In this document: positions 739-42,210 of the stretch, piece by piece
Position numbering within the stretch: position 1 is the first letter of the stretch
Layout of the letters: the number at the start of each line of letters is the position of its first letter
Assembly: GCA_017470345.1 (NCBI GenBank)
Contig: JAFUEP010000022.1
Coordinates: forward strand, 1-60,787
Source of the DNA: Prevotella sp.
Lineage (GTDB): Bacteria; Bacteroidota; Bacteroidia; Bacteroidales; Bacteroidaceae
Direction: 5' to 3'
Length of the DNA: 60,787 nucleotides
The notes under the pieces: model-generated
The model's database searches: none
The model's input: the letters and a program-made list of their open reading frames with translations, nothing else
Told to the model about the DNA's origin: nothing
Position numbers and translations under genes: made by a program

Positions 739-777
739 ACACTGAAAATCAGTGTGGTTGCGAATTCAGTTCGCAAC
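739..777 (+). promoter_or_regulatory. Two adjacent perfect hairpins in the giant-gene leader
   Basis: The first stem pairs ACACTGA (739-745) with TCAGTGT (749-755). The second pairs GTTGCGAA (757-764) with TTCGCAAC (770-777) around a 5-nt loop. They lie 47 nt upstream of the ATG at 824. No T-run follows, so a simple terminator is unlikely; a role in mRNA processing or leader structure is inferred. Confidence 0.5.
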
Positions 778-823
778 ATTCAGAAAGAAATTTACAAAAT
801 CGACCTATAAAACGAGTGACGAT

Positions 824-12800: not shown

Positions 12801-14116
12801 TCTGGACCGAGGGCAACACGACGCTGACCTTCGCCCGCAAGCGGCTCTATGCCGTCGGCGAGACCTTCAACGGCCAGAAGGTGACGGCCGTCTGGAGCGG
12901 CGACGACGTGATGCGCACGTCGGTCAACTACGGCGTAGCGCCCAAGTGGGTCGCCACGGTGAAAAACAAGGTGACCCGCGTCGTCTTCGACGATACCTTC
13001 GACGACCAGCCCGGCACCAACAACCAGTACTATCCGCAGTCGTTCGGCTCGTGGTTCGACGGCTGCTCGAAGCTCGTGTCGGTCACCGGCCTGCAGCATG
13101 CCCGCTCCGAGCGTGCCACCCTGATGACCTACATGTTCCGCGGGTGCAGCGCGCTGACACAGCTCGACATGTCGGAGTTCAAGTCGACGATGACGACCAA
13201 CATGAGCGGCATGTTCGAAGGCTGTAAGTCGCTCAAGACGCTCAAGCTGGGCGGTCTGTACACCGCGAGGGTCATCTCGATGACCGGCATGTTCAAGGAC
13301 TGCAGTTCGCTGACGTCGCTCGACCTGAGCAACTTCTCGACCGCGGCGGTGATCAGCATGGCCGACATGTTCTCGGGCTGCAACAAGCTGACGTCGCTGA
13401 AGCTCTCGAATTTCAGCACGTCGAAAGTGACCAATATGAGCGGCATGTTCCGCAGCTGCAGCGCCCTGACCTCGCTCGACCTCTCGAGCTTCAACACGTC
13501 GAAGGTCACCAACATGAGCTACATGTTCTATCAGTGCAAGGCCCTGACCTCCATCCCGACGGGCAACTTCGACACGTCGAACGTGACCGACATGAGCTGC
13601 ATGTTCTACTCATGCAATGCACTGTGGAAACCCGATGTGAAGAACTTCGACACGTCGCGAGTGACCGACATGAGCTTGATGTTTGCCAACTGTTCGGCCG
13701 CCACCAGCATCGATGTCAGTAAGTTCGACACCCAGCAGGTGACGAGCATGAAGATGATGTTCCAGGCCTGCAGCTCGCTGACCAGCCTGACGCTCACGTC
13801 GTTCAACACCCAGAAGGTGGAGTCGATGCTGCAGATGTTCTACAACTGCAAGAACCTGAAGTCGCTCGACCTCTCAAGCTTCAACACCTCGAAGGTGACC
13901 GTCATACGCCTCATCTTCGGCAACTGCACGGCCATGACCCAGTTGAAGGTGAGCAACATGTTCCGCACCGACAATGCCACCGACCGCAGCAGCGGCTTCT
14001 CGCAGGTCAAGGGTCTCACCGTTCAGGTGCCCAAGTCCAGCATGGCGAACGTGACCACATGGTTGAAGAACATCGGCTTCGTCGAGGGTACCACCGGCAC
14101 CATCACGACATATTAA
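824..14116 (+). CDS. Giant secreted protein (4,430 aa) with five blocks of BspA-type leucine-rich repeats
   Basis: The start at 824 is chosen because it begins a clean signal peptide (MRRHVRYIAMALLALCMMPSQAQ); the frame is open upstream to 752 but that extension is charged. Residues 24 to ~330 resemble the N-terminal domain of very large Bacteroidota secreted proteins (IDNPGKFFSV, then LLPEGQYQLYLQAYKW). The middle, to about residue 2800, is acidic and beta-rich, with a Lys/Asp-rich linker near 985-1010 and a coiled coil near 1515-1548. From about residue 2800 come ~30 units of DUF285/BspA type (T.MS.MF..C..L..LDLS.F.T..V) in five blocks. Each block starts with an IWSG/VWSG motif; the last three end with GFVEG or GFTEG. 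There is no frameshift over 13.3 kb. The size and sorting suggest surface display; binding to host or dietary polymers is inferred. Confidence 0.9.
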   Translation: MRRHVRYIAMALLALCMMPSQAQEISISVQPVQDVLPPQAGQYIDNPGKFFSVRLTNLTDEQQLLHIGMHIDQTFPEEQVMVVTPYGHIPRQPIVVPPRQTKTLNPIEMKQLFTHFELNEIYIRDGLYNDYSRGIFGLLPEGQYQLYLQAYKWDPDVTSAVELNSPDNGVCRFSVCYMAQAPTFITPQTTMDTDPLSLLNVAKVSKNNPGPHFTWTLPTLKCNPSLYPFEYDVKIVRLDDLMPDEAIEKNPVEYQVQRLTTPTLTIPQAYMTKMFEQTKQDRNIVYAIQVTAHSAFQNASNLNYATASGNTNFTLIENDGRSPVLLFRLWDSSFDEDKIDVSVEEGESELEDKDSLYVFEQPTLTSPQFSSLTARKVFMGDSIKAEWRKAWFAGGKGERQDTVKFEYTVNLYKGNSADTPEGIFTSKPVYTKKTEHLGDTIKWEKLKDKVDEGDYLMLRVTAKSTNVKSIRMHGDSLNYKDFAMATHVEVDYDCGTSTGDVANKEPLKEAPKAGTQVRIGDWTLTLNGDVEQDKSSHALKGTGFISWTPGGMKLRVAVKFDDLMVNTDNVVFAGKCKTYPDPKGGEWLSEDEKYTTEQAIDSLFSDWGIDNFWNTLPQDVADKVSQDADGMVNSVAESFSMGKYYSYYKKGQNQWDKWKQGEWMDLYFPVQLPDTIAKQLPEDFSLQIHNIVYKPTGAIMNVIGEYVLPKTQVTKNQVLVFGAPALCIQKDRFFPEDGSLALLSNFTITDPDSDFDMTFKAPMEPLHPTDGCFIQWRDDEFDGLGIEVAMHIPNLDRVVDGKVQKDVEPICDLKAVIEGNWGDWIGTITMSDFQVRDLPGWTFKPGQAIVYDHSYERNDREMVALSSLNKTYDPSKVGSYVKTDWAAWQGLYVKDIGVGFPKWYVFGKGDEGLQLDMKDMLLDASGVTCRISASNIFEAKTGSAGGWRFNIDDVNVDIVQNNFDNCTIHGGFGVPLFGKKAAEKANEKAGIKTDGKGKDNDKDDVETDVNYTCEIRHLTDPSKTEEYYTYVQKRDKNGVPVAGEYEKIKHTRQDYGDKNRYAYIFKCEQVGDLQMNCFVADLTLLQNQTYFLLEAEDQEVGGQMETKTEVELCMAGDVTIAGASSVNETIKSITKDLPLDLTLPGIHFSKLRLSNVKKFTLAYEEDEKTGLRGKNAKAQQDWESAHKSRKILVEGKELTLGDNCYFHYGEWSLASEKKKIGSFSFSLDKFDFGFSGNKLSLDITGTIGLIGDKIEATAGIGITSNLDKTGSGVADWSLSNGKVEFKEAALSLDFSALKLEGSLKVSDDADKKGYAGSLDIEITGLFSVNCEGGYYKSDKSWTVTADERAEMDADAKEANETLTTQDKSSYSWGYFKVSLESNTGIRIDPLVINRISGGFYFNCRPTKGSDTDKDKFGGEPVGQYGMIGVAMGLGLNTSAGKETLNADLDLLVVYDRKNKCLSTFMFDGKVNAIGGIVKAEASLVYENVKNTSGKTLNRYLTLNITVEAGWDTSDIVGRIAELNSSLASIKGKLDEFQKEVDGVYKRITEAPRQGLKQISGDYKANDDGVAAEDQTEDSNVTQPKASTGITAGKVKISLELMIRWVRNGEAYSTPKWHLYLGEPAVDKRCSYTLLKFGTEGKSICWADIGANGYLCLGNELPDNGQLPPIPAKIQEFLTGHKNANTDMNADLQKAERSRSKAVKNLLKEGNVDGGVMVGASAWGDIGLDLGLLYGSLESMVGFDAAFVHYGSNAVCVNTRSQMGKNGWYAMGQLYAFLEAELGLHIKIGRLIDTRIKLLYAGIGGVLECGLPNPSWVEGQARVKISLLAGLVKINKKFGFSAGDHCVPFLGNAIDGFELFSDVSLGSDSLYEALYRPEFAISQHDANRLVFTTNASLGSHFRLVDPSYQAELAKEVDVEEDSLLNHLSSRTYVFDMDQNLNQANTKMGVRLLDLGTTATSIVKNKPGLTPQQFYEELGAISESQAEQNARSRGYYYQTLNSLVASVFSDKAKTVSESNVVMKSSDINSQEERLLHGSTTWASHMNEILNKNTVTIDKNTYKASYIMPVENSVSFREDRGTTFHLTGMGLQPGHSYALFLEGNAYEIMNGKRVWVDYFDSEGDQEYHYIKWRQDKVWFFRVKSNEEDRVIGDSLRNLEPYVALAYPSVDGTKVKSSSEGLTTAYYGDIMHPTIALNRDLRGSLSENKMKWVLTPYHADDLEKPVAAAQTRDVRLLQNGNCFNLEPASAFSSVSVFANDYSKALSGGRTYSFENEVYHLELQYTYKYQVPSKRGVELRDSTFSLVDLWLASAPHSVPVSNWSGTPKLTDNWYLSTDQAVTGKVLPYSEPFVGARPTKSPTFGYQNYYNSQKNSNLSTDAIWIWEDGQKLNGKVYRLIDPYLYFAYLGCWTFIGDRKIDKYAFDDAYIPFASESLIYEYNGTVVNCEMLKNPEGEQGLMVTRDKMYTTWDDWNYGVGSAAPANSNIMQPYYPLPQTMKSIGGPTVNNQDGKACTVTPLSVHRYTDFRYCLQDMAMDFIAPYSVAQQLGRKLKEEAFELWRLFAYRYFITQKYPELSFNDPFDNYVKDYNNLHRGQYINVTDRGVNVRIPYYQLPLIFGDCFGGDGATYQGKSLDKHSRTFKTSVGQDDTPKGRWPSWVSNVAFWRLMGTDPSQHAYKAYQLDPEVFSRHASHSMYNYAYMSPSNTSREVQWDDFNASAALKNVSGMQALMYRVNAYDVSTGLYTVVNGLGGIPSSSIVNLTGVAGASSMGEVYDELVDVAATMESTYDTKRPQALWSSSQKTLYLTYSSERYEKSVDAPIIYKNGAPIDTIWYDNDVKDAVWKNTISLDVERVVIDASFKDADLRSLKDWFKGCSHLVRIEGLENLNTEKVTDMSRMFYNCKKLDYVKLNKLNTAMVTDMSYMFFNCKALTTIDLRSFDTEKVTLTASMFAGCDAVEKIFLSSFNTKNVTSMYQMFAGCKALQSIYFDPDKFTTAKVEDMSYMFMNCSSLKTLNLKTLQSDKLSSTHRMFAGCTSLTHLYLNDFVAYDVGNTEGMFNNCTSLKYINLKEFIPQVKYRESLSNMFTNVPEALTAYINYDLDDRIKEQIPGNKSMNYSENVQAVYFTTNSGTSTEKHYLAFLNASVKYSDKKNNFIKIGDTGLTGKVIDAWSGVDVLNAAEVKWKSVKSLISEIIFAPSFKQSPKYMNFWFDGCRSLTKIEGLKNLNTKKTEMMDYMFRNCSKLTDLSEASYFQTDNVTTMSGMFEGCTALTSVGTYNWNTKNVKDMRAMFKGCSSLTRLSFDYYFETDKVTDMKEMFMKCSKLTRIDCKSTFNTANVTSMASMFEGCSALEDVYDLTCNMDGSSLTTIAGMFKDCSSLKEIEMPLFSTPKTTEFLNAFYNCRAMKLLDLSSLSSESLKTCNTMFYLLPYQCTIYLPYDISEKITSQLSAYRNLILLYPAKVLKVKYGSGYELDFISSKQAYKVGDTYNGREIVGIWSGNEVYNTDSPGWSGYSASNVNRVVIDESFKQIVPRSLKRWFDGMSKITGIYGLEYLNTSKAKSMNSMFSGCSKLKNLSVKTFDISELTDMGFMFYGCSSLTDLDLSTFDTRRITDMGFMFSGCSSLKTLNLSNFYTWNVTMMSSMFGGCSSLTELDLTKMDTKAVTQALGMFSGATSLTKLRLGQNFTFDKLTSTGWDAFKNVGSLAVIVPEAQLEAIRTKFTQNMGFTEGETGNFYTSEPQPVAQAILTEDNATLTFCYGPQVTTRFRGADVTQVWSGSSVENSPNPAPWLTACSGVVKTVVFDPTFASVKPVRLATWFRNFTALTTISGMEFLNTSEVTSVMSLFQGCSSLTTVDLSHFKLDKCSTLGYMFYGCRNLASVNLKGLGSMPKLETVVYMFTSCSSLPTIDMADIRTTNVTRADGLFSGCTKLRDLKLNYLGLFDKVSPKATNAFTGVTNLEVKAPKSYASKTRTNFTNNLGFVEGTHGFIVDEYDVVTEAIWTEGNTTLTFARKRLYAVGETFNGQKVTAVWSGDDVMRTSVNYGVAPKWVATVKNKVTRVVFDDTFDDQPGTNNQYYPQSFGSWFDGCSKLVSVTGLQHARSERATLMTYMFRGCSALTQLDMSEFKSTMTTNMSGMFEGCKSLKTLKLGGLYTARVISMTGMFKDCSSLTSLDLSNFSTAAVISMADMFSGCNKLTSLKLSNFSTSKVTNMSGMFRSCSALTSLDLSSFNTSKVTNMSYMFYQCKALTSIPTGNFDTSNVTDMSCMFYSCNALWKPDVKNFDTSRVTDMSLMFANCSAATSIDVSKFDTQQVTSMKMMFQACSSLTSLTLTSFNTQKVESMLQMFYNCKNLKSLDLSSFNTSKVTVIRLIFGNCTAMTQLKVSNMFRTDNATDRSSGFSQVKGLTVQVPKSSMANVTTWLKNIGFVEGTTGTITTY
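9230..14113 (+). repeat. Five tandem DUF285/LRR modules within the giant gene
   Basis: Approximate module boundaries are 9230-10190, 10190-11185, 11185-12015, 12020-12775 and 12785-14113. They carry about 7, 6, 4, 4 and 11 MF..C-type repeats. Each opens with a short beta-rich stretch containing WSG and a conserved (V)V(I/F)D.(S/T)F, then a W(F) motif and a first repeat with LNT. The copies differ at many positions, so this is old duplication with variable repeat number, not recent DNA duplication. Confidence 0.8.
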
Positions 14117-32068: not shown

Positions 32069-32175
32069 GAACCGTCTTCGACGGGAAATTAAACAGAATT
32101 TGAATCAAAATTAAACATTATCTTTGATTAATTTTGTCTTCAATTTTGAAGAATTTCCAGCCGAAGGCTGCCGTT
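32069..32175 (+). mobile_element. Diverged relative of the foldback element
   Basis: It has the same layout as the 172-bp element: GAACCGTCTTCGACGGG hairpin, AT-rich centre, and CCAGCCGAAGGCTGCCGTT hairpin. The outer tips and target duplication are missing. The right hairpin abuts the stop codon of the GH76 gene (32174-32176). Confidence 0.6.
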
Positions 32176-33775
32176 ATTTGACGATTTTTTTCCCCTTCGT
32201 GACGTAGAGGCCTCGGGGCAGGGTGTCGAGGGCGGAGCCGACGGCGCGGCCGTTGAGTTGATAATAAGTGCTTGCTGCCGATGTGGCAGCGCGGGGGGCG
32301 CTGACGGCGGCTGCGGCCTGGGCCTGACGCTGATGCCAGACGGCGAGCATGGCGAGCTCGGCGGCGAAGGCCATCTGATGGAAGCCCTTAGTCACGTCGG
32401 GGTTGCCCGTGGAGACGTCCCATCCCTCGAGGAGGTTGATGGGGAGCATCGAGGCGCGGTTGAAATGGTCGTAGGCATAGTCGAGGTTCTGCTGGAACGA
32501 CTCGATAGCGTTCTGGGCGTAGGGCTTGCCGTTGTAGAAGGTCGTGTTGTATGGGCAGGCGTCGACGTAGGCGCGCATGAGGACGTTGTCGAACCACGTG
32601 TTGAAGCCCTCCTCGGCCTTGGGGTCGGTGGGCCACTGGCGGAAGACGACGCCGTCGATGCGCTTGCCCTTGGCGAAGTAGTTGAACGACTTCTGGCTGA
32701 CGGTGTTCAGGTCGGCCTTGTAGATGTCCTCGCCCGTGACGCGCCATAGCTCGGCGGCGCCGGCGAGCATCGTGCCCGTGTTGTAGGTGTAGGCGGTGCC
32801 GGTGGGAGCGCCCGTGTCGACGTGGTCGCGATAGCGGTTGCGGCCCTCGCCGACGTACTTGATCTCGCCCGGGGCGCCGAGCATGTCGTGATAGACGCCG
32901 GCCGACTGGCTGTAGAGCATCTTCTTCTGCCAGGCATAGATCTTGCGGGCGAAGTCGAGGTAGACGTCGGAGTGGCGGCGCATCTCGTTGGTGCGGCTGC
33001 CGTCGGGCAGGATGTAGAAGTAGCGCAGGTTGGCGGGCTCGTCGTCAGTCTTATATATCTCATAGAGCCAGACGAGGGGCTGGATCAGCGGGGCGTTGGA
33101 GCAGGCGTGCTTGGAGTTATAACCAGGGCCCCAGGTGATGCCGCCATACTCCTGACCGTTGGGGTCGAGGCAGCAGTCCCAGCCGTCAATGCAGTAGTTG
33201 ACCAGCAGCTCGGCCTTCGTCAGGTAGGCATCGTCGCCCGTCAGTCGGTAAGCGCGGACGAGCTCGCGGCAGAGCCACATCTGGTCGTCGTAGACGTTCT
33301 CGATGCCCGTGACGGCGGCCGTGCCGCGGGTGTCGCTGCGATGGACGCCGTAGATGCTCCATGAGCGTATCTGGGCATAGGAGTAGAGGGTGTAGGTGCC
33401 GCGATAGTAGTCGAGGCAGTCGTAGAGCTGACGGAGGCGGACGACGTAGCGGTCGCGGGTCGCGGCGTAGAGCTCGGGGGCGTCGTCCTTGAGGGCGTCG
33501 AGGGCCTCGAGGACGGAGCAGTGGGCCTCGATGGCGGCGGTGTAGGGCCAGACGTCGGCGGTGCCGGCGCCCTGCTGCGTCTGGGTGTTGTAGGTGTCGT
33601 ACATGCGGAGGGTGCTGGCGCTGCCGGTGAAGGCGTGCTGCATGGTGGCGTCGACGAGGTCGATGGCGCGGCGGAGGTCCTGGAGGGCGGCCTCGGAGGG
33701 GACTGCGGCGGCGGATGTTGCGGCAATGCCGCAACACACCAGACAGGAAAGGAGGGCGGAAAGGAGGTGATTCAT
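32174..33775 (-). CDS. GH76 endo-alpha-1,6-mannanase, secreted
   Basis: 533 residues. The N-terminus MNHLLSALLSCLVCCGIAATSAAA is a signal peptide encoded partly by a palindromic repeat shared with three other PUL genes. It is unclear whether signal peptidase I or II processes it. The (alpha/alpha)6 catalytic domain carries the GH76 Asp-Asp pair at 163-164 (ENVYDDQMWLCRELVRAY), plus ITWGPGYNSKHACSNAPLIQPL and AYTYNTGTMLAGAAELWRVTG. The family hydrolyses the alpha-1,6-mannose backbone of fungal and mycobacterial mannans with retention. The C-terminus (YYQLNGRAVGS...RGLYVTKGKKIVK) resembles a type IX sorting tail. It lies 75 nt downstream of the other GH76 gene and is probably co-transcribed. 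Confidence 0.9.
   Translation of the reverse strand: MNHLLSALLSCLVCCGIAATSAAAVPSEAALQDLRRAIDLVDATMQHAFTGSASTLRMYDTYNTQTQQGAGTADVWPYTAAIEAHCSVLEALDALKDDAPELYAATRDRYVVRLRQLYDCLDYYRGTYTLYSYAQIRSWSIYGVHRSDTRGTAAVTGIENVYDDQMWLCRELVRAYRLTGDDAYLTKAELLVNYCIDGWDCCLDPNGQEYGGITWGPGYNSKHACSNAPLIQPLVWLYEIYKTDDEPANLRYFYILPDGSRTNEMRRHSDVYLDFARKIYAWQKKMLYSQSAGVYHDMLGAPGEIKYVGEGRNRYRDHVDTGAPTGTAYTYNTGTMLAGAAELWRVTGEDIYKADLNTVSQKSFNYFAKGKRIDGVVFRQWPTDPKAEEGFNTWFDNVLMRAYVDACPYNTTFYNGKPYAQNAIESFQQNLDYAYDHFNRASMLPINLLEGWDVSTGNPDVTKGFHQMAFAAELAMLAVWHQRQAQAAAAVSAPRAATSAASTYYQLNGRAVGSALDTLPRGLYVTKGKKIVK
33717..33737 (-). repeat. Signal-peptide palindrome, copy a (GH76)
   Basis: Arms TGTTGCGGCA and TGCCGCAACA are perfect complements around one central base, encoding CCGIAAT of the signal peptide, about 38 nt inside the gene. 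The surrounding 40 bp (33714-33753) are identical to 36041-36080 in the next gene. Confidence 0.85.
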
Positions 33776-33783
33776 ATTCTTTT

Positions 33784-33862
33784 CTTTTTTTTCGTTATTT
33801 CGTTATTTCGATATTTCGTTATATCGTTATTTCGTTATTTCGGGATTGGGTTATTTCGTGAT
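33784..33862. repeat. TTATTTCG tandem repeat at the end of the second GH76 gene
   Basis: About eight degenerate copies of CGTTATTTCG/CGATATTTCG occupy the spacer and run into the coding end, so the last residues of the upstream protein (NNITK) are repeat-encoded. Confidence 0.7.
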
Positions 33863-36172
33863 GTTGTTATGGCGGGGATTGTTTTGGAATTTCTTGCCGT
33901 TCTGGATGAGGAGGGGGGCGGTACGGCTGGGGCGGGCGAGCAGGTCGTAGGTGCGCGGGGCGGAGGGCAGGGCGGCGCGGGGCGCGGTGATGGCGGTCGG
34001 GGCGGGGCCGTAGAGCTTGAAGGAGCCGAGCATGACGTCGGGGGAGTCCTGCGTCTCGGTGATGTTGAGGCGATAGTAGCGGAAGGGGCGGCCGATGCTG
34101 TCGTTCCTGAGGCCGTAGTCGTCGTCGAGGATGCCCGACTGGCGCAGGAGGCAGACGGCCTCGAAGAGCATCATGCCGGTCTGCTGGCGCGACGTGTCGT
34201 GGGTGACGTCGGCGTCGGGATACTGCTGGTTCCAGTAGGGGTTGATGATGAACTCGGGCTTCAGGATGGCGGCGAGGGCGGCGGAGCGGGCCTGCTCGAG
34301 GAGCCACTTGGCATAGCGGAACTGACGGTCGGGGTCGAGATGGCCGGAGATGATCCACTGGGTGAGGTAGCGGACGAAGATGCCCTTGAACATGCCGCCG
34401 TCGTCCTGGTTGTAGTTCTGGCGCTCATTCATGATGCCGTGGGGCGAATACCACTTGCCGAACATGAGGAGATCCATGAGGTCGGTGGCCGTCTGGCGGT
34501 AGACGTCGTCGCCCGTGATCTTGTAGAGCTCGAGGAGCCCGCCGACCCAGGTGCCCTGGTTGTAGGAGAAGGTGACCTCGTGGTCCTCGTTGGTGGCATT
34601 GTCCTTGACGACGCCGTCGGGGAACCGGTTGTGGTCGCGCATGTATTCGTAGATGCGCAGGGCCCAGTCGAGATACTTCTGCTCCTGGGTCTCCTGATAG
34701 AGTCGGGCGGCGAGGATCATGGCTGGGGCGTTGGAGCAGGAGGTCTTGTAGCGGCCGTCGCCCGTCTTGTTCTTGTTCCAGTGGATGCCGCCGCCGTCGA
34801 CGTCGCTCCATCCGCCGACGATGTCGTTGAAGAGCGTCGTGACCTGGTTGAAGTACTGGCGGTTGAGCGTTGCGTTCATCTTGCAGCCACGTAGCAGGGC
34901 GAGGGCCATCCACTCCATGTCGTCGTAGAAGTGGTTGATGAGCGTGTTGTTGTTGCGGGCGCGGGTGCCGTTGAGCAGCTGGCTGACCTTGGTCAGCTTG
35001 GTGTTCTGCTTGGTGCGGCCATAGAGGTCGAGGTAGTTGTCGACGGCATGGGCTGCCCACCAGTAGCCGCCCCAGTCCTCGTTGACGTTCTTGGGGTCGG
35101 CGGACCAGTCGCAGATCCAGTAGATGCCGCTGGTGCCCTGACGGCGCTCGAGGTTCTGCTCGCAGAAGTCCATCAGGCGGTCGGCCACGTCGGCATAGTC
35201 GACGTGGGCGCCAGGCCGTCCGAGCTCGTAGCGCTGCTCGTAGAGGTCGACGGCCATCGAGGCGGCGTTGTGCTGGAGGTCGAGGGTCGTCCAGTGCTCG
35301 CCGTCGTTCGAGGCCAGTAGCTCCCAGCACGAGGGTCGGCGGTCGCGGTAGGCGCTGGTGGTGAGGCCGACGGCGTAGGCGCTGATGGGCGTCGGCTCGT
35401 CGAACTCATACTGCACCCAGGCGTTCTTCAGTCCGTTGTAGCGCGTCTCGCCGTTGAAGTTGTCGATCTGCTCGCGGTCGGCGCTGGGGATCTCGGTCAT
35501 GGTCGTGGCGACGTTGTCGATGAGGTTCATGGCGTTGCGCACCTTGGCGGCGCCGGTGAGGATGCCGCGCTCGGCGGTGGCCAGGTTGTCGTCGTCGGCA
35601 GCGGGATAGCCGAGGAGCTGGATGTCGCTGATGCGGAGCTGGGTGGCGCCGTTGTTGGCTTTGAAGGCGAGACGGAAGTGGGTGAAGCCGCCGCTGGGGC
35701 CGCCGTTGAACTGGCGTTCGCGCTGGCGGGCGGTGAACGAGACGTTGTAGGTGCGGACGCTGCGCCACGTCTGGCCGTCGTCGGAGACCTGCAGGAGCAG
35801 CTGCTTGAGGTCGCACTGGGCGTCGTCGGAGGAGACGACGGTGAAGCCCTTGAGGACATAGGGGCGTGGGGCGTGGAGGATGACCTCCTCCTGGCCGGTG
35901 AAGCTGGGGATGGAGAAGACGGTGAGGTCGTTCTTGTCGAAGAGGGGGGCGAGGTCGGCTTCGAAGCCGACGGCCTCGGCGGTGCAGACGTCGGCGATGC
36001 TCCAGTCGGTGAGGGCTTTCTGGGCGAGGATGGGGGAGGGGGATGTTGCGGCAATGCCGCAACACACCAGACAGGAAAGGCGGCGGAGGGCCTGAGCCAA
36101 GGGGCGGCGGGCTTGGGCCAGGGGGCTGAGGGCTGAGGCCCAGAGGGGGCGGCGGGGGGTGGGGATGGTCAT
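33851..36172 (-). CDS. GH76 endo-alpha-1,6-mannanase with two N-terminal discoidin-like domains
   Basis: 773 residues. The start at 36172 overlaps the GH92 stop by 4 nt (ATGA), implying translational coupling. The leader is odd: Arg/Ala/Leu repeats (PLAQARRPLAQALRR) precede the repeat-encoded hydrophobic SCLVCCGIAATS. Residues ~52-190 and ~200-310 look like F5/8-type carbohydrate-binding modules (FTHFRLAFKANNGATQLRISDIQLLGY; WVQYEFDEPTPISAYAVGLTT). The GH76 domain follows, with the catalytic Asp-Asp pair at 417-418 (INHFYDDMEWMALALLRG) and GGGIHWNKNKTGDGRYKTSCSNAP as a landmark. The C-terminus (TYDLLARPS...LLIQNGKKF) is a degraded sorting-like tail with a repeat-derived end. Likely a surface or secreted mannanase that binds the polymer. 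Confidence 0.9.
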   Translation of the reverse strand: MTIPTPRRPLWASALSPLAQARRPLAQALRRLSCLVCCGIAATSPSPILAQKALTDWSIADVCTAEAVGFEADLAPLFDKNDLTVFSIPSFTGQEEVILHAPRPYVLKGFTVVSSDDAQCDLKQLLLQVSDDGQTWRSVRTYNVSFTARQRERQFNGGPSGGFTHFRLAFKANNGATQLRISDIQLLGYPAADDDNLATAERGILTGAAKVRNAMNLIDNVATTMTEIPSADREQIDNFNGETRYNGLKNAWVQYEFDEPTPISAYAVGLTTSAYRDRRPSCWELLASNDGEHWTTLDLQHNAASMAVDLYEQRYELGRPGAHVDYADVADRLMDFCEQNLERRQGTSGIYWICDWSADPKNVNEDWGGYWWAAHAVDNYLDLYGRTKQNTKLTKVSQLLNGTRARNNNTLINHFYDDMEWMALALLRGCKMNATLNRQYFNQVTTLFNDIVGGWSDVDGGGIHWNKNKTGDGRYKTSCSNAPAMILAARLYQETQEQKYLDWALRIYEYMRDHNRFPDGVVKDNATNEDHEVTFSYNQGTWVGGLLELYKITGDDVYRQTATDLMDLLMFGKWYSPHGIMNERQNYNQDDGGMFKGIFVRYLTQWIISGHLDPDRQFRYAKWLLEQARSAALAAILKPEFIINPYWNQQYPDADVTHDTSRQQTGMMLFEAVCLLRQSGILDDDYGLRNDSIGRPFRYYRLNITETQDSPDVMLGSFKLYGPAPTAITAPRAALPSAPRTYDLLARPSRTAPLLIQNGKKFQNNPRHNNITK
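36044..36064 (-). repeat. Signal-peptide palindrome, copy b (GH76)
   Basis: It has the same TGTTGCGGCA/TGCCGCAACA arms as copy a, within a 40-bp identical block (36041-36080). It lies about 108 nt inside this gene because the leader is unusually long. Confidence 0.85.
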
Positions 36173-38664
36173 TTCTTTTCTAATTCAAGGGTGAAGGAAT
36201 AGGGGGCGGCGGCGGGGTGAGTGCCGCGGGTGAGGTTGGGCGTGGGCTGCATCTGGAAGTGGATGCGGGCGCCGCGGATGAGGTCGGCGTGGTTGAGGTA
36301 GTTGCGGTCGTAGGGCTGGCCGTCGAGGGTCATGGCGCCGATGTAGGGGGGAAGGGCCGCAGGAGATGCGGCGGCGGCGTCGGCCTCGATGGTGATGTCG
36401 CGGCCGTTGGGGAGATGGACGACGGCGCGGGGGAAGCGGGGGGTGCCGATGGCATACTGGCCGGAGCCGGGACAGACGGGATAGAAGCCGAGGGCGGAGA
36501 AGACATACCAGGCTGAGGTCTGGCCGTTGTCCTCGTCGCCGCAGTAGCCGTCGGGGTTGGCGTTGTAGAAGCGGTCCATGACCTCACGGATGCGCTGCTG
36601 TGCCTTCCATGGCTGTAGGGCCCAGTCGTAGAGGTAGATCATGTGCTGGATGGGCTGGTTGCCGTGGGCGTAGTTGCCCATGTTCATGATCTGCATCTCG
36701 CGGATCTCGTGGATGACGGCGCCGTAGTAGCTCTCGTCGAAGAGTGGGGGGACGTTGAAGACGGAGTCGAGCATCTGGGTGAAGACGTCGCGGCCGCCCA
36801 TGAGGCGGATGAGGCCTTCGGGGTCGTGGAAGACGGACCAGGTGTAGTGCCAGGCGTTGCCCTCGGTGAAGGCGTCGCCCCACTTCAGTGGCGAGAAGGG
36901 TGCCTGGAAGGATCCGTCGGCGTTGCGGCCGCGCATGAGGCGGGTCTCGGGGTCGAAGACGTTGCGATAGTTGAGGGCGTGCTCGCGGAAGGGCTTGAGC
37001 TCCTTCTTCGACTTGCCGAGGGCCTGTCCGAGCTTGTAGATGCACCAGTCGTCGTAGGCATACTCGAGGGTGCGTGCGACGTTCTCGTTGATGCCGACGT
37101 TATAGGGGACGTAGCCGAGGCGGTTGTAGTATTCCCAGCCGAGGCGGCCGGTGGAGGGGACGTCGGGGTGGACGGCGTTGGCGCCGTGGACGACGGCCTG
37201 CCAGAGGGTAGAAGCCAGAGCCCCCCCTACGGCCCCCGAGGGGGCTTCTATAGTTTTGTTGTTAAGGGAAGAGGATATAGTAGCCCCCTCGGGGGCAGAA
37301 TGGGGGGCTTGTAGGCTGAGCTTCAGCCAGGCGTCGGCGACGACGGAGGCGGAGTTGTTGCCGACCATGCAGCCGCGATGGCCGGGGCTGGCCCATTCGG
37401 GGAGGAATCCGCTCTCGAGGTAGCAGTTGACGAGACCCTCCTGCATCTTGACGGCCATCTCGGGATAGACGAGGTTGAGGAGGGGGAAGAGGCAGCGGAA
37501 GGTGTCCCAGAAGCCGGTGTCGGTGAAGTAGTAGCCGGAGCGGATGTCGCCGGTGTGGGGGCTATAGTGGACGGGCTTACCCTCGTCGTCGATTTCATAG
37601 AAGGCGCGGGGGAAGAGGACGGAGCGGTAGAGGCAGGAGTAGAAGGTCTGCAAGTGAGAAGTGAGAGGTGAGAAGTGGGAAGTGTTCTCACTTAGTTCGA
37701 TGCGGCCGAGGACGTCGTTCCATCGCTGGCGGCCGTCGGCGCAGACCTGCTCGAAGGAGCGGGGGCCGAGCTCCTGGAGGTTGCGGAGGGCCTGCTCGGG
37801 GCTGATGAAGGACGAGGCGACGCGGAGCGTGACCTGCTCGCCGCGACGGGTGGACATGGTGACGACGGCGCCCTGTCGGCCCTGGTCGTCGACGTGCTGG
37901 GCGAGGGTGAAGGGGTGGTCGATCTCAATGACGAAATAGTTGCGGAAGTTCTGGGGTACGCCGCCGCTGTTCTTGACGGTGTAGCCGGTGATGCGGCGGC
38001 GCTGGGGGTCGACGGTGACGCTGGATCCGCCGTCGAAGGCATCGACGACGATGTTGGCCTGCGCGGTCTCGGGGTAGGTGAAGCGGAGGATGGCGGCGCG
38101 CTCGGTGGGGGCGAGTTCGGCGGTGACGTCCCAGTCGGCGAGGTAGACGCTGTAGTAGTAGGGTTTGGCCACCTCGGCCTTATGTGAGAACCATGAGGCG
38201 CGGTCGTCCTCGGCGAAGCGGGGGTCGCCGGTGGTGGGCATGATGGCGAACTGGCCGTAGTCGTTGATCCAGGGTGAGGGCTGGTGGGTCTGCTTGAGGC
38301 CGCGGATCTTGTCCTCGGTGTAGACGTATTGCCAGCCGTCGCCCATGCGGCCGGTCTGGGGGGTCCAGAAGTTCATGCCCCAGGGGAGGGCGACGGCGGG
38401 GTAGGTGTTGCCGGTGGAGAGGGAGTGCTTCGAGAGGGTGCCGACGAGGGTGGAGACATAGTCGACGGGGGAGGGGGAGGCGGGGGAGACGGGGATGTCG
38501 ACGGCTGAACCGTCGACCACACTGGGGAGCACGGAGGCGGGGAGGGCGGCGGGAAGGGCGGCGGAGGCGGGGAGGGCCGCGGGAGAAGCGGCCGCGGCGG
38601 GGAAGGCCGAGGGAAGGGCAGCGGGGAGGAGGAGGGAGAGGAGGGAGAGGAGGGGCTTTTTCAT
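36169..38664 (-). CDS. GH92 exo-alpha-mannosidase with in-frame palindromic insertions
   Basis: 831 residues, longer than the other GH92 here. After a signal-like start (MKKPLLSLLSLLLPAALPS) comes an Ala/Pro-rich low-complexity stretch of about 35 residues. The GH92 landmarks then run normally: YVSTLVGTLSKHSLSTGNTYPAVALPWGMNFW, DTFRCLFPLLNLVYPEM, FTEGNAWHYTWSVFHDPEGL, YAHGNQPIQHMIYLYDW and CGDEDNGQTSAWYVFSALGFYPVCPG. Two segments are foreign to the family: about APHSAPEGATISSSLNN through GGALAS (DNA 37219-37309) and NTSHFSPLTSHL (DNA 37652-37693). Both are encoded by inverted repeats and keep the frame. It heads the GH92-GH76-GH76 gene group and probably releases mannose from side chains. Confidence 0.88.
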   Translation of the reverse strand: MKKPLLSLLSLLLPAALPSAFPAAAASPAALPASAALPAALPASVLPSVVDGSAVDIPVSPASPSPVDYVSTLVGTLSKHSLSTGNTYPAVALPWGMNFWTPQTGRMGDGWQYVYTEDKIRGLKQTHQPSPWINDYGQFAIMPTTGDPRFAEDDRASWFSHKAEVAKPYYYSVYLADWDVTAELAPTERAAILRFTYPETAQANIVVDAFDGGSSVTVDPQRRRITGYTVKNSGGVPQNFRNYFVIEIDHPFTLAQHVDDQGRQGAVVTMSTRRGEQVTLRVASSFISPEQALRNLQELGPRSFEQVCADGRQRWNDVLGRIELSENTSHFSPLTSHLQTFYSCLYRSVLFPRAFYEIDDEGKPVHYSPHTGDIRSGYYFTDTGFWDTFRCLFPLLNLVYPEMAVKMQEGLVNCYLESGFLPEWASPGHRGCMVGNNSASVVADAWLKLSLQAPHSAPEGATISSSLNNKTIEAPSGAVGGALASTLWQAVVHGANAVHPDVPSTGRLGWEYYNRLGYVPYNVGINENVARTLEYAYDDWCIYKLGQALGKSKKELKPFREHALNYRNVFDPETRLMRGRNADGSFQAPFSPLKWGDAFTEGNAWHYTWSVFHDPEGLIRLMGGRDVFTQMLDSVFNVPPLFDESYYGAVIHEIREMQIMNMGNYAHGNQPIQHMIYLYDWALQPWKAQQRIREVMDRFYNANPDGYCGDEDNGQTSAWYVFSALGFYPVCPGSGQYAIGTPRFPRAVVHLPNGRDITIEADAAAASPAALPPYIGAMTLDGQPYDRNYLNHADLIRGARIHFQMQPTPNLTRGTHPAAAPYSFTLELEKK
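37219..37309. repeat. GC-rich inverted repeat inserted in the GH92 coding region
   Basis: Arms at 37219-37246 and 37282-37309 share AGCCCCCC and GCCCCCGAGGGGGCT in inverted orientation, around a 35-nt spacer. Each arm contains its own palindrome CCCCCGAGGGGG. The translated product has no counterpart in GH92 proteins as I know them. Confidence 0.8.
37652..37693. repeat. Second inverted repeat inserted in the same GH92 gene
   Basis: AAGTGAGAA (37652-37660) and TTCTCACTT (37685-37693) are perfect complements. Between them are GTGAGAGGTGAGAAGTG-type direct units, related in style to the AGTGAAAAGTGAAAA repeat at 545-572. Confidence 0.7.
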
Positions 38665-38703
38665 GACTTGGAAATTTATTTACAAGGAGGGCGCTGATGG
38701 AAG

Positions 38704-38785
38704 AAAAGTGCCGCTTTTCGACCCGAGAAGCGGTGCTTTTTGGGTCGAGAAGCGGTGCTTTTTTCGCTGAGAAGCGGCACTTCTT
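38704..38785 (-). repeat. 22-bp-period hairpin array, locus 3
   Basis: AAGCGG hexamers start at 38728, 38750 and 38772, exactly 22 bp apart, with an out-of-sense CCGCTT unit at 38711. On the minus strand the units read like those at 640-722. The array occupies the 206-bp spacer between the DUF4973 gene and GH92 and is followed by a CTGATAATCAG motif (38808-38818), as at locus 2. Confidence 0.8.
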
Positions 38786-38870
38786 TTCTCTTGGTTCTTG
38801 TTCTGTCTGATAATCAGTCGGTTGTGATTTCTTGACAAGAGTTTAGAATATTCTTTACAAAAGAGAGGCG

Positions 38871-39929
38871 TCACCACTGGATGGCCTGGTCCTCGTTCGG
38901 GATCTGGGTGTTGAGCTGACGCTCGAGGGTGAGGATGCCCTTGACGGTGTAGCCCATGGGATAGGTCAGGACGGAGGTGTAGTCGGTGTAGTCGTACTCG
39001 ATGCCCGAGATGATGACGTAGTGGTGGAGGAGGTATGGCTGCACGTCGTCGATCTGCTCGTAGACGCGGAACTGCGCCGTGCCTCGCTGCTGGAAGAGGT
39101 TCTTCTCGGCGTTGTCCGACCATAGCTCGACGGTGCCTTGGTTGCCGTCGGCGGAGGTGGGATGGAAGCGGAAGAAGACCTTATAGTTGCGACGGTCGAC
39201 GCGCGTCTCGTCGATGTTGCCCATGTAGAAGAAGACGGTCTGCTCGTCGACGACGTAGGCGCGGCTGGTCTCCATGCCGGTGGCTCCGTCGGGTGCGCTG
39301 GCGTTGGTGAGGGTGAGCGTCGTGGCGGAGTAGTTGCCCGAGTAGTCGTTGTAGGGATAGACGCGGAGCATGGCCTTGGCGTAGTTCTTGCGGGGGTGGG
39401 GCTGGTAGGCCGCGTCCTGCTTGACCTCGATGGGTAGGACCCACTTCTCGACCATGTCGATGCCGGAGAAGTCGAAGTTGATGCGGAGCAGTCCGACGTC
39501 CTCGCCGCTCTGGATCTGCATGGTCTCGGGATAGGAGGCATAGTCGGACATGTCGCGATAGTAGAGGTCGACGATGTCGGCGCGGTAGGTTGGCGATCCG
39601 AAGCGCTCGTAGTTGAGCGTGGTGAGCGTGTCGCTGTGGCCTACGTGGACGGTGAGGTTGCGGTCGTTGCGGGTGGTTCCGGCAACGATGACAGGCAGGT
39701 CGTAGCTGGATCGTCCCTCGGCGCCGTACATGAGCGAGCCGTCGTCGTTGTGGCGCGAGTAGGGGACGTAGACGGCCGTGACGCCATTGTCGTTGAGGGG
39801 GGCCTTGAAGCTGATGTACTTCTCGTACTGCTCGTCCTTCCACTCGTCGTTGCAGGAGGTTGTTGCTGCGGCAATGCCGCAGCACACCAGACAGGAGGTC
39901 AGCAGTTTGGCTATATTCATCTTTTTCAT
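38871..39929 (-). CDS. DUF4973-type surface lipoprotein (SusE-position)
   Basis: 352 residues. Lipoprotein signal with Cys26 (ATTSCNDEWKDEQYEKYISFKAPLN) preceded by the repeat-encoded SCLVCCGIAA. The body (ISFKAPLNDNGVTAVYVPYSRHNDDGSLMY, then SYDLPVIVAGTTRNDRNLTVHV, LNYERFGSPTYRADIVDLYYRDMSDYASYPETMQIQSGE, MVEKWVLPIEVKQD) is what I know as the DUF4973 family of PUL lipoproteins. The C-terminal half may be a DUF4361-like binding domain. It directly follows SusD (55 nt), the usual position of surface glycan-binding proteins. It likely binds the mannan or its oligosaccharides outside the cell. Confidence 0.8.
   Translation of the reverse strand: MKKMNIAKLLTSCLVCCGIAAATTSCNDEWKDEQYEKYISFKAPLNDNGVTAVYVPYSRHNDDGSLMYGAEGRSSYDLPVIVAGTTRNDRNLTVHVGHSDTLTTLNYERFGSPTYRADIVDLYYRDMSDYASYPETMQIQSGEDVGLLRINFDFSGIDMVEKWVLPIEVKQDAAYQPHPRKNYAKAMLRVYPYNDYSGNYSATTLTLTNASAPDGATGMETSRAYVVDEQTVFFYMGNIDETRVDRRNYKVFFRFHPTSADGNQGTVELWSDNAEKNLFQQRGTAQFRVYEQIDDVQPYLLHHYVIISGIEYDYTDYTSVLTYPMGYTVKGILTLERQLNTQIPNEDQAIQW
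39864..39884 (-). repeat. Signal-peptide palindrome, copy c (DUF4973 lipoprotein)
   Basis: Arms TGCTGCGGCA and TGCCGCAGCA are perfect complements. Compared with copies a and b, one position in each arm is changed so that pairing is kept (T-A becomes C-G), while the protein changes Ala-Thr to Ala-Ala. A 28-nt block (39865-39892) is identical to 42137-42164. Confidence 0.85.
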
Positions 39930-39984
39930 TGCTATTGGTCTTTATGGGTTGTTTCTAATCGTTCTCCCTGTCGGGGGGAGGCTC

Positions 39985-42210
39985 TTAGTCGTTATATTTC
40001 CATCCGGGGTTCTGGACGAGGTTCTTGTTGCGCTTGAGGTCGGTGAAGGAGATGGGCCAGAAGTACATCTTGTCGGTGAACGTGGCGGAGAGGTTGTAGA
40101 CAGGGATGACCTGCATGAACTCGTTGCGGTTGGCAGAGGTCATGAAAACGTTGAGTCCGTAGATGCGCTTGTTCTCCTCGACGGGTGCGTCCATCCATCG
40201 GCGCAGGTCGAAGTAGCGCTTGCCCTCGCCCATGAACTCAATCATGCGCTCGCGCTTCAGCTTGGCGCGGAGCAGGTCCTGGTCGGCATATTCCTGAGCG
40301 GTGTAGTCGGGCAGTCCGGCGCGTATGCGTATGGGGCGTATGCCGCGCTTCATCTCCTGCAGGTCGCGTCCGGTGATGGTCGTGGGCTGGCCCTTCCAGT
40401 CGGTCTGCTGATAGGTCTGTCCCTGGGTGAGCTCGTTGAGGCACTCGGCATAGAGCAGGAGGATGTCAGCATAGCGGATGGCGGGCTCGAACTTGACCCG
40501 GACCTGACCATAGCTGCCGCCGCCGCTGGGCTGTGCAGCGAAGAAGTCGTAGGGGTGATAATACTTCTTGATGCCGATGCCGGTGCGGAGGTAGGCGAAG
40601 GAGTTGCGATAGCCGTCGGCTCCGGCGCGATAGTAGGTCACCTGCTTCATCTGGTCAGCAGGGGTGGGATTGCCGAGCTGCTCCCAGATGGTGCCGTTGT
40701 AGGCGACGGAGGCATAGAATCGTGGCTCGCGTCCGGCATACTGATGGCTGACGTTCATGCGCTGCGACATGGAGAGGGAGCGGTTGGTGGGGTTGGCGAG
40801 CACCTCGGGATAGACGTCGTTCTGGACCTCTGCGCGGGTGAGGAAGCCGGTGGGGCGCTCGCGGTCGTTGCCGGGGTTGTCGACGGTGGTCTCGCCAGGC
40901 GTGCGCCACTCGCTGTACATGCCGTCGACGTCGGAGCCGTCCTTCATGTAGTAGGTGTCGACCATCTTCTGCGTCAGTCCGTGGGTGTTCCATCCGTTGA
41001 GCGACGTGGGCATGGCGTGGCCCACGAGCGATGCGATGCCGTTGTCGTGGTCGCCGGTCTCGATGTTGCCGCGGGTGAAGATGAGCTCGGGGTTGCCCTC
41101 GGGGCTGGCCACGCCGTTGAAGAGGTTGCGATAGGAGAGGTAGGGGTCGATGTTCTGCCATCCGTCGGGCCAGTTCTTGTCAGAGAAGTCGGCGTCGGCG
41201 GGGGGCACGACGGTGACGGGGCGGTCGTCGGTGGCCACGTCGTTGTAGGGCTCGGTGTAGAGGTCGTAGACGCCGAGGTCGATGACGTCCTTGCAGGCGG
41301 CGGCGGCGCGGGCCCAGCGGGTCTCGTCGTAGGTGAGCGAGAGCAGCGGCGTGCCGTCGAAGTTGCGGAGCAGTCGGGCGACGTCGTCGGTGACGTTGGC
41401 GGGGTGGTGTCCGTTCTGCAGCTGACCGTTGGCCAGGGGCGAGGCGGCATAGGTGAGGACGATGGCGCGGGTGGCCAGAGCGGCACCGATGGTGGGTCGC
41501 ATGACGTTGGAACCGTCGCGGCGCAGGGCCTTCAGCTCTCCGGCCGCCTTGAGCATCTCAGAGGCGATGTAGGTGGCGCACTCCTCGTAGGTGGAGCGGG
41601 GCGTGGCCAGGTCGTCGTAGCTGAGCGTATAGTCGGCACCCTCGTCGGCCATGATGGGCACGGGTCCGAACTTGCGGAGCAGGAGCCAGTAGTAGTAGGC
41701 ACGCACGAATCGGGCCTGACCGCGGTAGTCGTCGACCTCGTCGGGCGTCATGGCCGTGTTGCGATCGATGTTGTGGATGAAGATGGAGGCCTGGTAGATG
41801 CCCTGATAGCATCGCACCCATGCGTCCTGACCCTGGTGCTCGTCGTAGTTGCCCTCGTGGAAGGAGTTATACGAAGCCCAGTCGGCATCCTTGGAGTCGC
41901 CGAAGGAGTTGTCGCGGTCGCCGTAGTACATGTCGTCGTCGAAGTTGAAGGGGTTCCATGCGCCGCCCTCGCCTCCGGTGCCACCCTTGGAGCCCACCTC
42001 GATGTTGGAGCCGTTGAGGAAGGAGTAGGCGTGGGCGAGCCACTGGTCGCACTGGATCTTGTCGGTGAAGACGCTCTCCAGGGTCTTGCTGTCGTCGAAG
42101 TATTTGTCGCTGTCGAGGTCGGTGCAGCTGATGGCTGCTGCGGCAATGCCGCAGCACACCAGACTGGACAGCAGCCAGTTATTGATGTTATTGGTAATCA
42201 TATCTTTCAA
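39985..42210 (-). CDS. susD: SusD/RagB family outer-membrane lipoprotein
   Basis: 741 residues. Lipoprotein signal with Cys29 (AAAAISCTDLDSDKYFDD) and the repeat-encoded SLVCCGIAA just before it. SusD landmarks are CYQGIYQASIFIHNID, DDYRGQARFVRAYYYWLLLRKFGPVPI, TYEECATYIASEMLKAA, YADILLLYAECLNELTQG and a C-terminal ERMIEFMGEGKRYFDLRRW. These proteins form the lid of the SusC transporter and capture glycan fragments at the cell surface. It lies 21 nt downstream of susC in a spacer made of TTTTCAAT repeats and is surely in the same transcript. It is longer than most SusD proteins (about 500-650). Confidence 0.93.
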   Translation of the reverse strand: MKDMITNNINNWLLSSLVCCGIAAAAISCTDLDSDKYFDDSKTLESVFTDKIQCDQWLAHAYSFLNGSNIEVGSKGGTGGEGGAWNPFNFDDDMYYGDRDNSFGDSKDADWASYNSFHEGNYDEHQGQDAWVRCYQGIYQASIFIHNIDRNTAMTPDEVDDYRGQARFVRAYYYWLLLRKFGPVPIMADEGADYTLSYDDLATPRSTYEECATYIASEMLKAAGELKALRRDGSNVMRPTIGAALATRAIVLTYAASPLANGQLQNGHHPANVTDDVARLLRNFDGTPLLSLTYDETRWARAAAACKDVIDLGVYDLYTEPYNDVATDDRPVTVVPPADADFSDKNWPDGWQNIDPYLSYRNLFNGVASPEGNPELIFTRGNIETGDHDNGIASLVGHAMPTSLNGWNTHGLTQKMVDTYYMKDGSDVDGMYSEWRTPGETTVDNPGNDRERPTGFLTRAEVQNDVYPEVLANPTNRSLSMSQRMNVSHQYAGREPRFYASVAYNGTIWEQLGNPTPADQMKQVTYYRAGADGYRNSFAYLRTGIGIKKYYHPYDFFAAQPSGGGSYGQVRVKFEPAIRYADILLLYAECLNELTQGQTYQQTDWKGQPTTITGRDLQEMKRGIRPIRIRAGLPDYTAQEYADQDLLRAKLKRERMIEFMGEGKRYFDLRRWMDAPVEENKRIYGLNVFMTSANRNEFMQVIPVYNLSATFTDKMYFWPISFTDLKRNKNLVQNPGWKYND
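42136..42156 (-). repeat. Signal-peptide palindrome, copy d (SusD)
   Basis: Arms TGCTGCGGCA/TGCCGCAGCA as in copy c, about 54 nt inside susD. The encoded peptide is CCGIAAA. Confidence 0.85.

Follow-up and report, generated by a model that had tools for sequence, protein, structure and literature searches.

Palindromes in four genes of one polysaccharide utilization locus

We analyzed a 60,787-nt stretch (the window) of contig JAFUEP010000022.1 from a Prevotella sp. draft genome (GenBank assembly GCA_017470345.1), in which four genes of one polysaccharide utilization locus (PUL) share a short palindrome, described below as a repetitive extragenic palindromic (REP)-like element. The hosts, according to Pfam, encode two GH76 proteins, a DUF4973 protein, and a SusD-like protein (Table 1). 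The 21-bp palindrome was found at four minus-strand sites with zero mismatches, and its copies begin 27–96 nt past the presumed start codons. None of 100 shuffled sequences contained any palindrome match, and perfect arms of at least 10 bp with a loop of 0–3 were confined to those four places in the 60.8-kb window. The region encodes SCLVCCGIAA in three genes and SSLVCCGIAA in the SusD-like gene, in each case within an N-terminal export signal. Two copies have TGT...ACA (Cys/Thr) and two have TGC...GCA (Cys/Ala); because the change in the Cys codon is synonymous and that from Thr to Ala is not, the paired change alters the protein on one side. A preliminary description of this DNA had reported the four copies, the peptide CCGIAA in each export signal, the compensated pair, and the four hosts, and all of these were recovered, with the first copy placed one base earlier (33716–33736, not 33717–33737). 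The conserved part proved longer than the 21 bp noted there, as TCC(T/A)GTCTGGTGTG lies directly 5′ of each palindrome on the coding strand.

Table 1 REP-like elements and their host genes in the window.
Feature	Position	Strand	Remarks
REP-like element 1 (palindrome 33716–33736)	33714..33748	-	Codes SCLVCCGIAAT, signal peptide of first GH76; 56.9 bits
REP-like element 2 (palindrome 36044–36064)	36042..36076	-	Most hydrophobic stretch in first 70 residues of second GH76; 56.9 bits
REP-like element 3 (palindrome 39864–39884)	39862..39896	-	Hydrophobic core of DUF4973 lipoprotein-type signal; 58.3 bits
REP-like element 4 (palindrome 42136–42156)	42134..42168	-	Hydrophobic core of SusD lipoprotein-type signal; 55.9 bits
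GH76 gene with copy 1	32174..33775	-	Pfam PF03663, 5.8e-18
GH76 gene with copy 2	33851..36172	-	Pfam PF03663, 4.6e-40
DUF4973 / BT_3044-like gene with copy 3	38871..39929	-	Pfam PF16343, 7.3e-43
SusD-like gene with copy 4	39985..42201	-	Pfam PF07980, 2.8e-61; start taken as ATG 42201, listed open reading frame from TTG 42210

Two further features of the window were recorded. Tandem-like short TTATTTCG repeats occupy 33780–33850, between the two GH76 genes and just upstream of the first, and a single open reading frame (ORF) of 4454 aa with high third-position GC extends over 752–14116.

A dispersed family with a covarying stem

When up to three mismatches were allowed, the 21-mer gave 43 strand matches in the draft genome (G000; 2.67 Mb, completeness 61.6%) versus 0 for the reversed control; on this result and that of the shuffled sequences, a chance origin of the palindromes was rejected. 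The near copies are mostly symmetrical (AGC..GCT, CGT..ACG, GGC..GCC, and TTC..GAA), with exceptions at C26:11930 and C59:1570, where C denotes the contig. A covariance model located the element at 37 or more distinct places at 29 bits or above, which is a lower bound, as 150 of 2309 candidates were scored. In this respect the element resembles REPs, which are palindromes of 20–50 nt dispersed in many copies. Alignment of 21 of 23 copies defined an upstream box, TCCYGTCYGGT, followed by the helix. The complete two-sided unit is 45 nt long (TCCCGTCCGGT..hairpin..ACGGGA), with outer arms TCCCGT / ACGGGA around an inner 10-bp hairpin, and folds into one long interrupted hairpin (z −5.65). Most copies retain the left box and the hairpin only: the left box matched at 9 or more of 11 positions in 34 of 37 copies, and the right box at 8 or more of 11 in 5 of 37. 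The hairpin was stable in DNA folding of four sequences (z −4.3 to −5.7).

Outside G000, strong matches to this form were obtained only in the sister genome RUG12472 (G312), an uncultured Prevotellaceae metagenome-assembled genome (MAG). Under strict filters, matches at E 0.001 occurred in 28 of 398 genus genomes, G000 counted; at E 0.01, they occurred in 3 of 40 relatives. One exact pattern scan of viral contigs for a phage origin gave 0 matches.

Covariation of the stem was counted in several alignments. The first, which omitted C58:17790 and C62:14830 for their weak box, had 27 two-sided cells versus 9.7 in shuffles, and the second comprised 18 distinct copies. A hand-picked set of 44 (35 of 47 relatives' rows plus nine of G000, without L118, which has a one-sided change) comprised 440 cells, of which 84 were two-sided, 2 one-sided, and 20 unpaired, and versions with slid partners reached at most 17 two-sided. 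As rows had been dropped from these alignments, the counts were redone with the full set of 37 G000 copies and with 46 of the 47 relatives' rows (without L092, a G312 copy), centring each copy at the position of most pairs, which favours pairing. Of the 370 cells of the G000 copies, 68 were two-sided, 1 was one-sided, and 3 were unpaired (in shuffles, two-sided cells averaged 17.1 and numbered at most 26); the relatives' copies, which were not hand-selected, gave 71, 2, and 25 of 460; and the combined set gave 142, 3, and 28 of 830 (shuffled mean 37.7, maximum 50), in agreement with the earlier counts. The preliminary description had held that unpaired changes as frequent as paired ones would speak against its structural explanation; paired changes clearly predominated.

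That explanation, selection or copying acting on the nucleic-acid structure, stood in part. Pairing is kept at the family level and in one orthologous signal peptide, that of the DUF4973 protein of genome G188, which has GGT..ACC where G000 has GGC..GCC, with Ala changed to Thr; maintenance by copying or selection is thus supported. Selection in place fared less well. At the copies shared by G000 and G312 we found two stem substitutions (on C26 and C16), both one-sided, and no in-place compensation, 16 of 44 copies having no ungapped G312 match. Copying of variant hairpins may therefore explain most of the paired changes.

Copies within coding sequences and export signals

Inspection of ORFs with the aid of third-position GC placed 33 of the 37 copies inside ORFs and four outside (two on C9, C62:6609, and C62:14807). 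A greedy choice of ORFs gave the window a coding fraction of 0.88, so the copies do not avoid coding DNA. All but two of the in-ORF copies (31/33) sit in ORFs with a family match, the remaining two being in one ORF on C47. The hosts include MutS (two copies), LeuRS (two), MnmG, RdgB, SufS, AOTC, PyrK, MetH, and CobB, and also an ABC ATPase (two), GH92, a GH88/GH28 protein (two), a helicase-like AAA protein, and others. Copies on the same strand as the host mostly encode SRPVxCGxAA, and those on the opposite strand mostly AAMPQxT or CGNAA.

In 5 of 5 proteins tested against the best solved homologue, the element fell, to within about three residues, in a stretch present only in the query: residues 91–125 of RdgB, 378–434 of MutS, 123–164 of MnmG, and 157–182 of SufS, and in AOTC 18 residues at the element lack a counterpart in 1js1. 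Comparison of G000 with G312 aligned 26 copies, of which 23 were shared and three were not: leuS C4:19252, ABC ATPase C43:35731, and C62:15383 in a putative REP-associated tyrosine transposase (RAYT) gene. In leuS, 27 extra codons including the element are present in G000 and not in G312 (FKVAPNDNAPAANAAASRPVNGGSAAVNNNGKSCDSFTIF versus FKVADSDKHFTIF). Partial tandem units were present at the RdgB and SufS copies. Tandem units adjoining elements were also seen to differ in number between the two genomes, by an extra 30 bp in SufS and, in CobB, by a unit of 24 bp (L184 and L187 versus C6 and C47 of G000).

In 6 of the 37 copies, judged by eye and hydropathy, the element forms the hydrophobic core of an N-terminal signal (the four in the window, C15:123501, and C26:11918). 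Two weaker matches outside the 37, C43:29841 (20.0 bits) and C58:14205 (16.6 bits), likewise lie in signal peptides. When the element peptide alone was removed, the best 11-residue hydropathy within the first 70 residues decreased from 2.21–3.09 to 0.85–1.86 in 8 of 8 proteins. Where many linker copies have CCG (Pro), five of the six signal copies have CTG (Leu), and where many have CGT (Arg), five of six have TGT (Cys). SRPV may thus have become SCLV, or the reverse. The other 31 copies are not in signal peptides, 27 of them lying within other ORFs on either strand; the genome search that the preliminary description had suggested revealed dispersed copies, most of them outside signal peptides.

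Orthologues of the DUF4973 gene were compared at 30 loci, 39 of 398 genomes having matched. The palindrome is present in G000 and G312, and 9 bp of it are left in G376. G361 has a similar peptide with most of the pairing lost, G219 and G340 have another hairpin after a similar box, and G239, G107, and G112 apparently have a different palindromic repeat (LPSLARRGWG). Most remaining orthologues have unrelated signals. At L232, L234, and L235, the DUF4973 signals are apparently built from the repeat CTCCCCTCCCT..GCAAGGAGGG (LPSLARRGWG), and at L231 and L233 from the repeat TTATCATTTATCATTTGTCATTTA (LSFIICHLSFS).

A candidate transposase and the origin of the element

The RAYT gene on contig 62 is an ORF of 406 aa (C62:14900–16120). 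Three elements lie within it (at 15311, 15383, and 15502) and a fourth is immediately 5′ of it (at 14807), and thus a RAYT gene is linked to copies of the element. It was identified through these in-gene copies, and its relative in G312 by protein search. The protein has the HUH motif PDHIH and a late YLDDNPRR, and matched NCBIfam REP_Tyr_transpos at 1.6e-10. Its relatives, paralogues included, occurred in 223 of 398 genus genomes at E 1e-10. In 25 of 30 RAYT loci (those of C62 and G312 counted), the HUH-to-Tyr linker contained a perfect hairpin of at least 8 bp, and the stems vary in sequence across species while the pairing stays. The linkers had 38 hairpins in 7815 nt versus 10 in 29739 nt elsewhere in the same ORFs, and GT[AG]G was found in 11 of 88 hairpin-strand readings.

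A search with Pfam Y1_Tnp found none in G312 at E 0.001 and, in G000, as its sole RAYT another one, on C35, with another palindrome. There (L034, C35:31873–32097), a Y1 transposase domain lies in frame within a 1067-aa ORF that by eye is DNA methyltransferase-like on both sides, and the palindrome GGAGGCGACGTGTCTCACGTCGC, read as CDVxHVAS, is repeated around it. Palindromes beside other RAYTs of the genus were considered as copies of the same element and rejected, as they belong to other families. One such family, CCCAGGGCNNNGCCCTGGG, lies beside the RAYT genes at L152, L153, L154, L169, and L170, and another, with TTTGCAA or TTGCAAA at its centre, beside those at L162, L166, and L173.

From these results we consider it likely that the palindromes represent a mobile element of Prevotellaceae, palindromic and REP-like, spread by a RAYT and captured in ORFs and signal peptides. 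The element would spread as single-stranded hairpin DNA recognized by a RAYT of the contig 62 type, which itself bears the element within its coding region. In-frame insertions would survive as linker peptides (SRPVxCGIAA), because the unit comprises 15 codons and is open in the frames used. Copies near protein starts may be kept as signal peptides, the replacement of R and P by C and L thereby making them hydrophobic, and in the window such capture would have affected four genes of a single PUL. The preliminary description had named capture of a repeat as a signal peptide among its possibilities, and this one is favoured by a dispersed family in which 6 of 37 copies are signal cores. The compensatory change in coding DNA would then be explained without mRNA regulation, and a tiny, mobile-looking palindrome would be raw material for proteins, as linkers in MutS or LeuRS and as probable export signals in a locus for glycan uptake. 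With the sister-species pair, the transposase copies inside the gene, and the differing signals of orthologues, it can be tested directly how such inserts arise and decay. A further step, which we propose only tentatively, is that this RAYT-borne family is now a protein-coding module: 45 nt or 15 codons, open on both strands in the frames used, with a coding share about that of the genome, tolerated as a linker by essential enzymes and repeatedly domesticated as a signal core that supplies new export signals to PUL proteins. The comparison of DUF4973 orthologues hints that repeats are captured with particular frequency at signal peptides.

Several observations weigh against this explanation. 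In NCBIfam the C62 protein scores 41 bits, under the curated threshold of 80, and Pfam gave no match at E 0.1. The tetranucleotide beside the 9-bp stem was GTGT (10 copies, including those of the window), GTGA (9), GTGC (7), or GTTA (6) in 32 of 37 copies, GTGG in 3, GTTT in 2, and GTAG in 0 of 37; the element has neither the tag of GTAG-type REPs (GTAG or GT[AG]G immediately before the stem on its 5′ side) nor their mostly intergenic location. The 15-bp core with two mismatches was no commoner than its reversed control (50 forward matches versus 101), so weak core matches carry little meaning. A test of cognate stems, with two stem classes and the best RAYT locus of each of 30 genomes, had a mixed outcome: TGCAAC..GTTGCA was frequent in the genomes predicted to have it (G203, 12; G376, 16), yet G275 (14) and G239 (13) had it often as well, and TGAGGC..GCCTCA had 1–3 copies in 11 of 30 genomes, those in predicted genomes being mostly the transposase-gene hairpins themselves. 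Recent movement is limited, because 23 of the 26 compared copies are common to the sister MAG. Neither target-site duplication nor clean cut points were observed, and the leuS and ABC-ATPase differences include additional low-complexity DNA.

Some of these points would fit a palindrome of the Rickettsia palindromic element (RPE) type that spreads without a RAYT, for instance by template switching or slippage in GC-rich Ala/Pro-coding stretches. Many flanks are of low complexity, tandem units differ between G000 and G312, the RdgB and SufS copies have partial units, and the cognate-stem test was mixed. We regard this origin as rather unlikely, since box and hairpin are common to copies in unrelated flanks and the transposase gene bears the same element. 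The preliminary description had also raised a shared 5′ mRNA structural element of PUL genes, which would control translation or mRNA stability. The four copies at 27–96 nt past presumed starts in one PUL and the stable hairpin agree with it, but 31 of the 37 copies occupy other sites, intergenic or within ORFs and on both strands, most orthologous DUF4973 genes lack the element, and Rfam gave 0 matches in the window at gathering scores; we therefore find it highly improbable. Equally improbable is an ancestral or convergent signal-peptide sequence (CCGIAA) with codons palindromic by accident. The G361 and G009 orthologues retain VCCGFSAA or VCCGIV without the full palindrome, so the peptide itself may be tolerated or favoured; nevertheless, the same DNA recurs inside the transposase and unrelated housekeeping proteins, where different frames and the opposite strand are used as well, and the unrelated DUF4973 and DUF6029 hosts are identical over 35 bases, third positions included. 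The copies outside signals exclude that the motif is simply ancestral signal-peptide sequence. Finally, the fixed box and spacing of 37 copies recall a selectively maintained site to which a chromosomal protein binds, but we give this almost no credence, as one protein would be expected to hold one sequence rather than many differently paired stems, this form scores in only 28 of 398 genus genomes under strict filters, and some orthologous places lack a copy.

REPs lying in frame, REPs within RAYT genes, and signal peptides derived from repeats are each already known; among the matches listed in searches of open-licence PMC text, we saw no description of this family in Prevotella, of its use as signal peptides, or of repeated capture in one PUL. 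Among the enterobacterial repeats RU-1/RU-2, a small mobile repeat was predicted as part of a signal peptide in YPO1552 (PMC2759123); these are 103–168 bp long, MITE-like (miniature inverted-repeat transposable element-like), of other sequence, and with few examples. RPEs of about 150 bp (reviewed in PMC10969869) resemble our element in being palindromic units open in frame within unrelated proteins (5/5 proteins and leuS here), whereas ours is 45 nt long with a RAYT bearing it. CGTC-tagged REPs, including RPE-4/RPE-6 of R. conorii, have been reported in Bacteroidetes (Di Nocera et al. 2013, PMC3733652), and no dedicated transposase is known for them. CGTC or TGTC in the box, the palindrome, and intragenic copies, including those in DNA repair genes, are similar. 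The CGTC-REP form, with CGTC at the foot of an 8–9 bp stem, a loop of 4–5, A-T as the first two pairs, and a CCA tail, was not found; here the motif is 5–6 nt from the stem, the loop is 1–3 nt, the second pair is mostly G-C, and there is no CCA tail. Subclass 2.4 of TnpAREP, reported to be abundant in Bacteroidetes, has REPs in frame between the HuH and Tyr motifs (Quentin et al. 2018, PMC6006769). Where that subclass has NH[IFV]H, WQ, and YIxNNP, we read DH[ILFM]H, mostly LWE or LF, and Y[LVIM]xDNP, and the tag GTGN or GTTA, the outer TCCYGTYYG box, and the mostly intragenic copies also differ. Both systems have a dispersed short palindrome with a conserved 5′ motif and an in-frame REP in the HuH-Tyr linker, the latter in 25 of 30 loci here.

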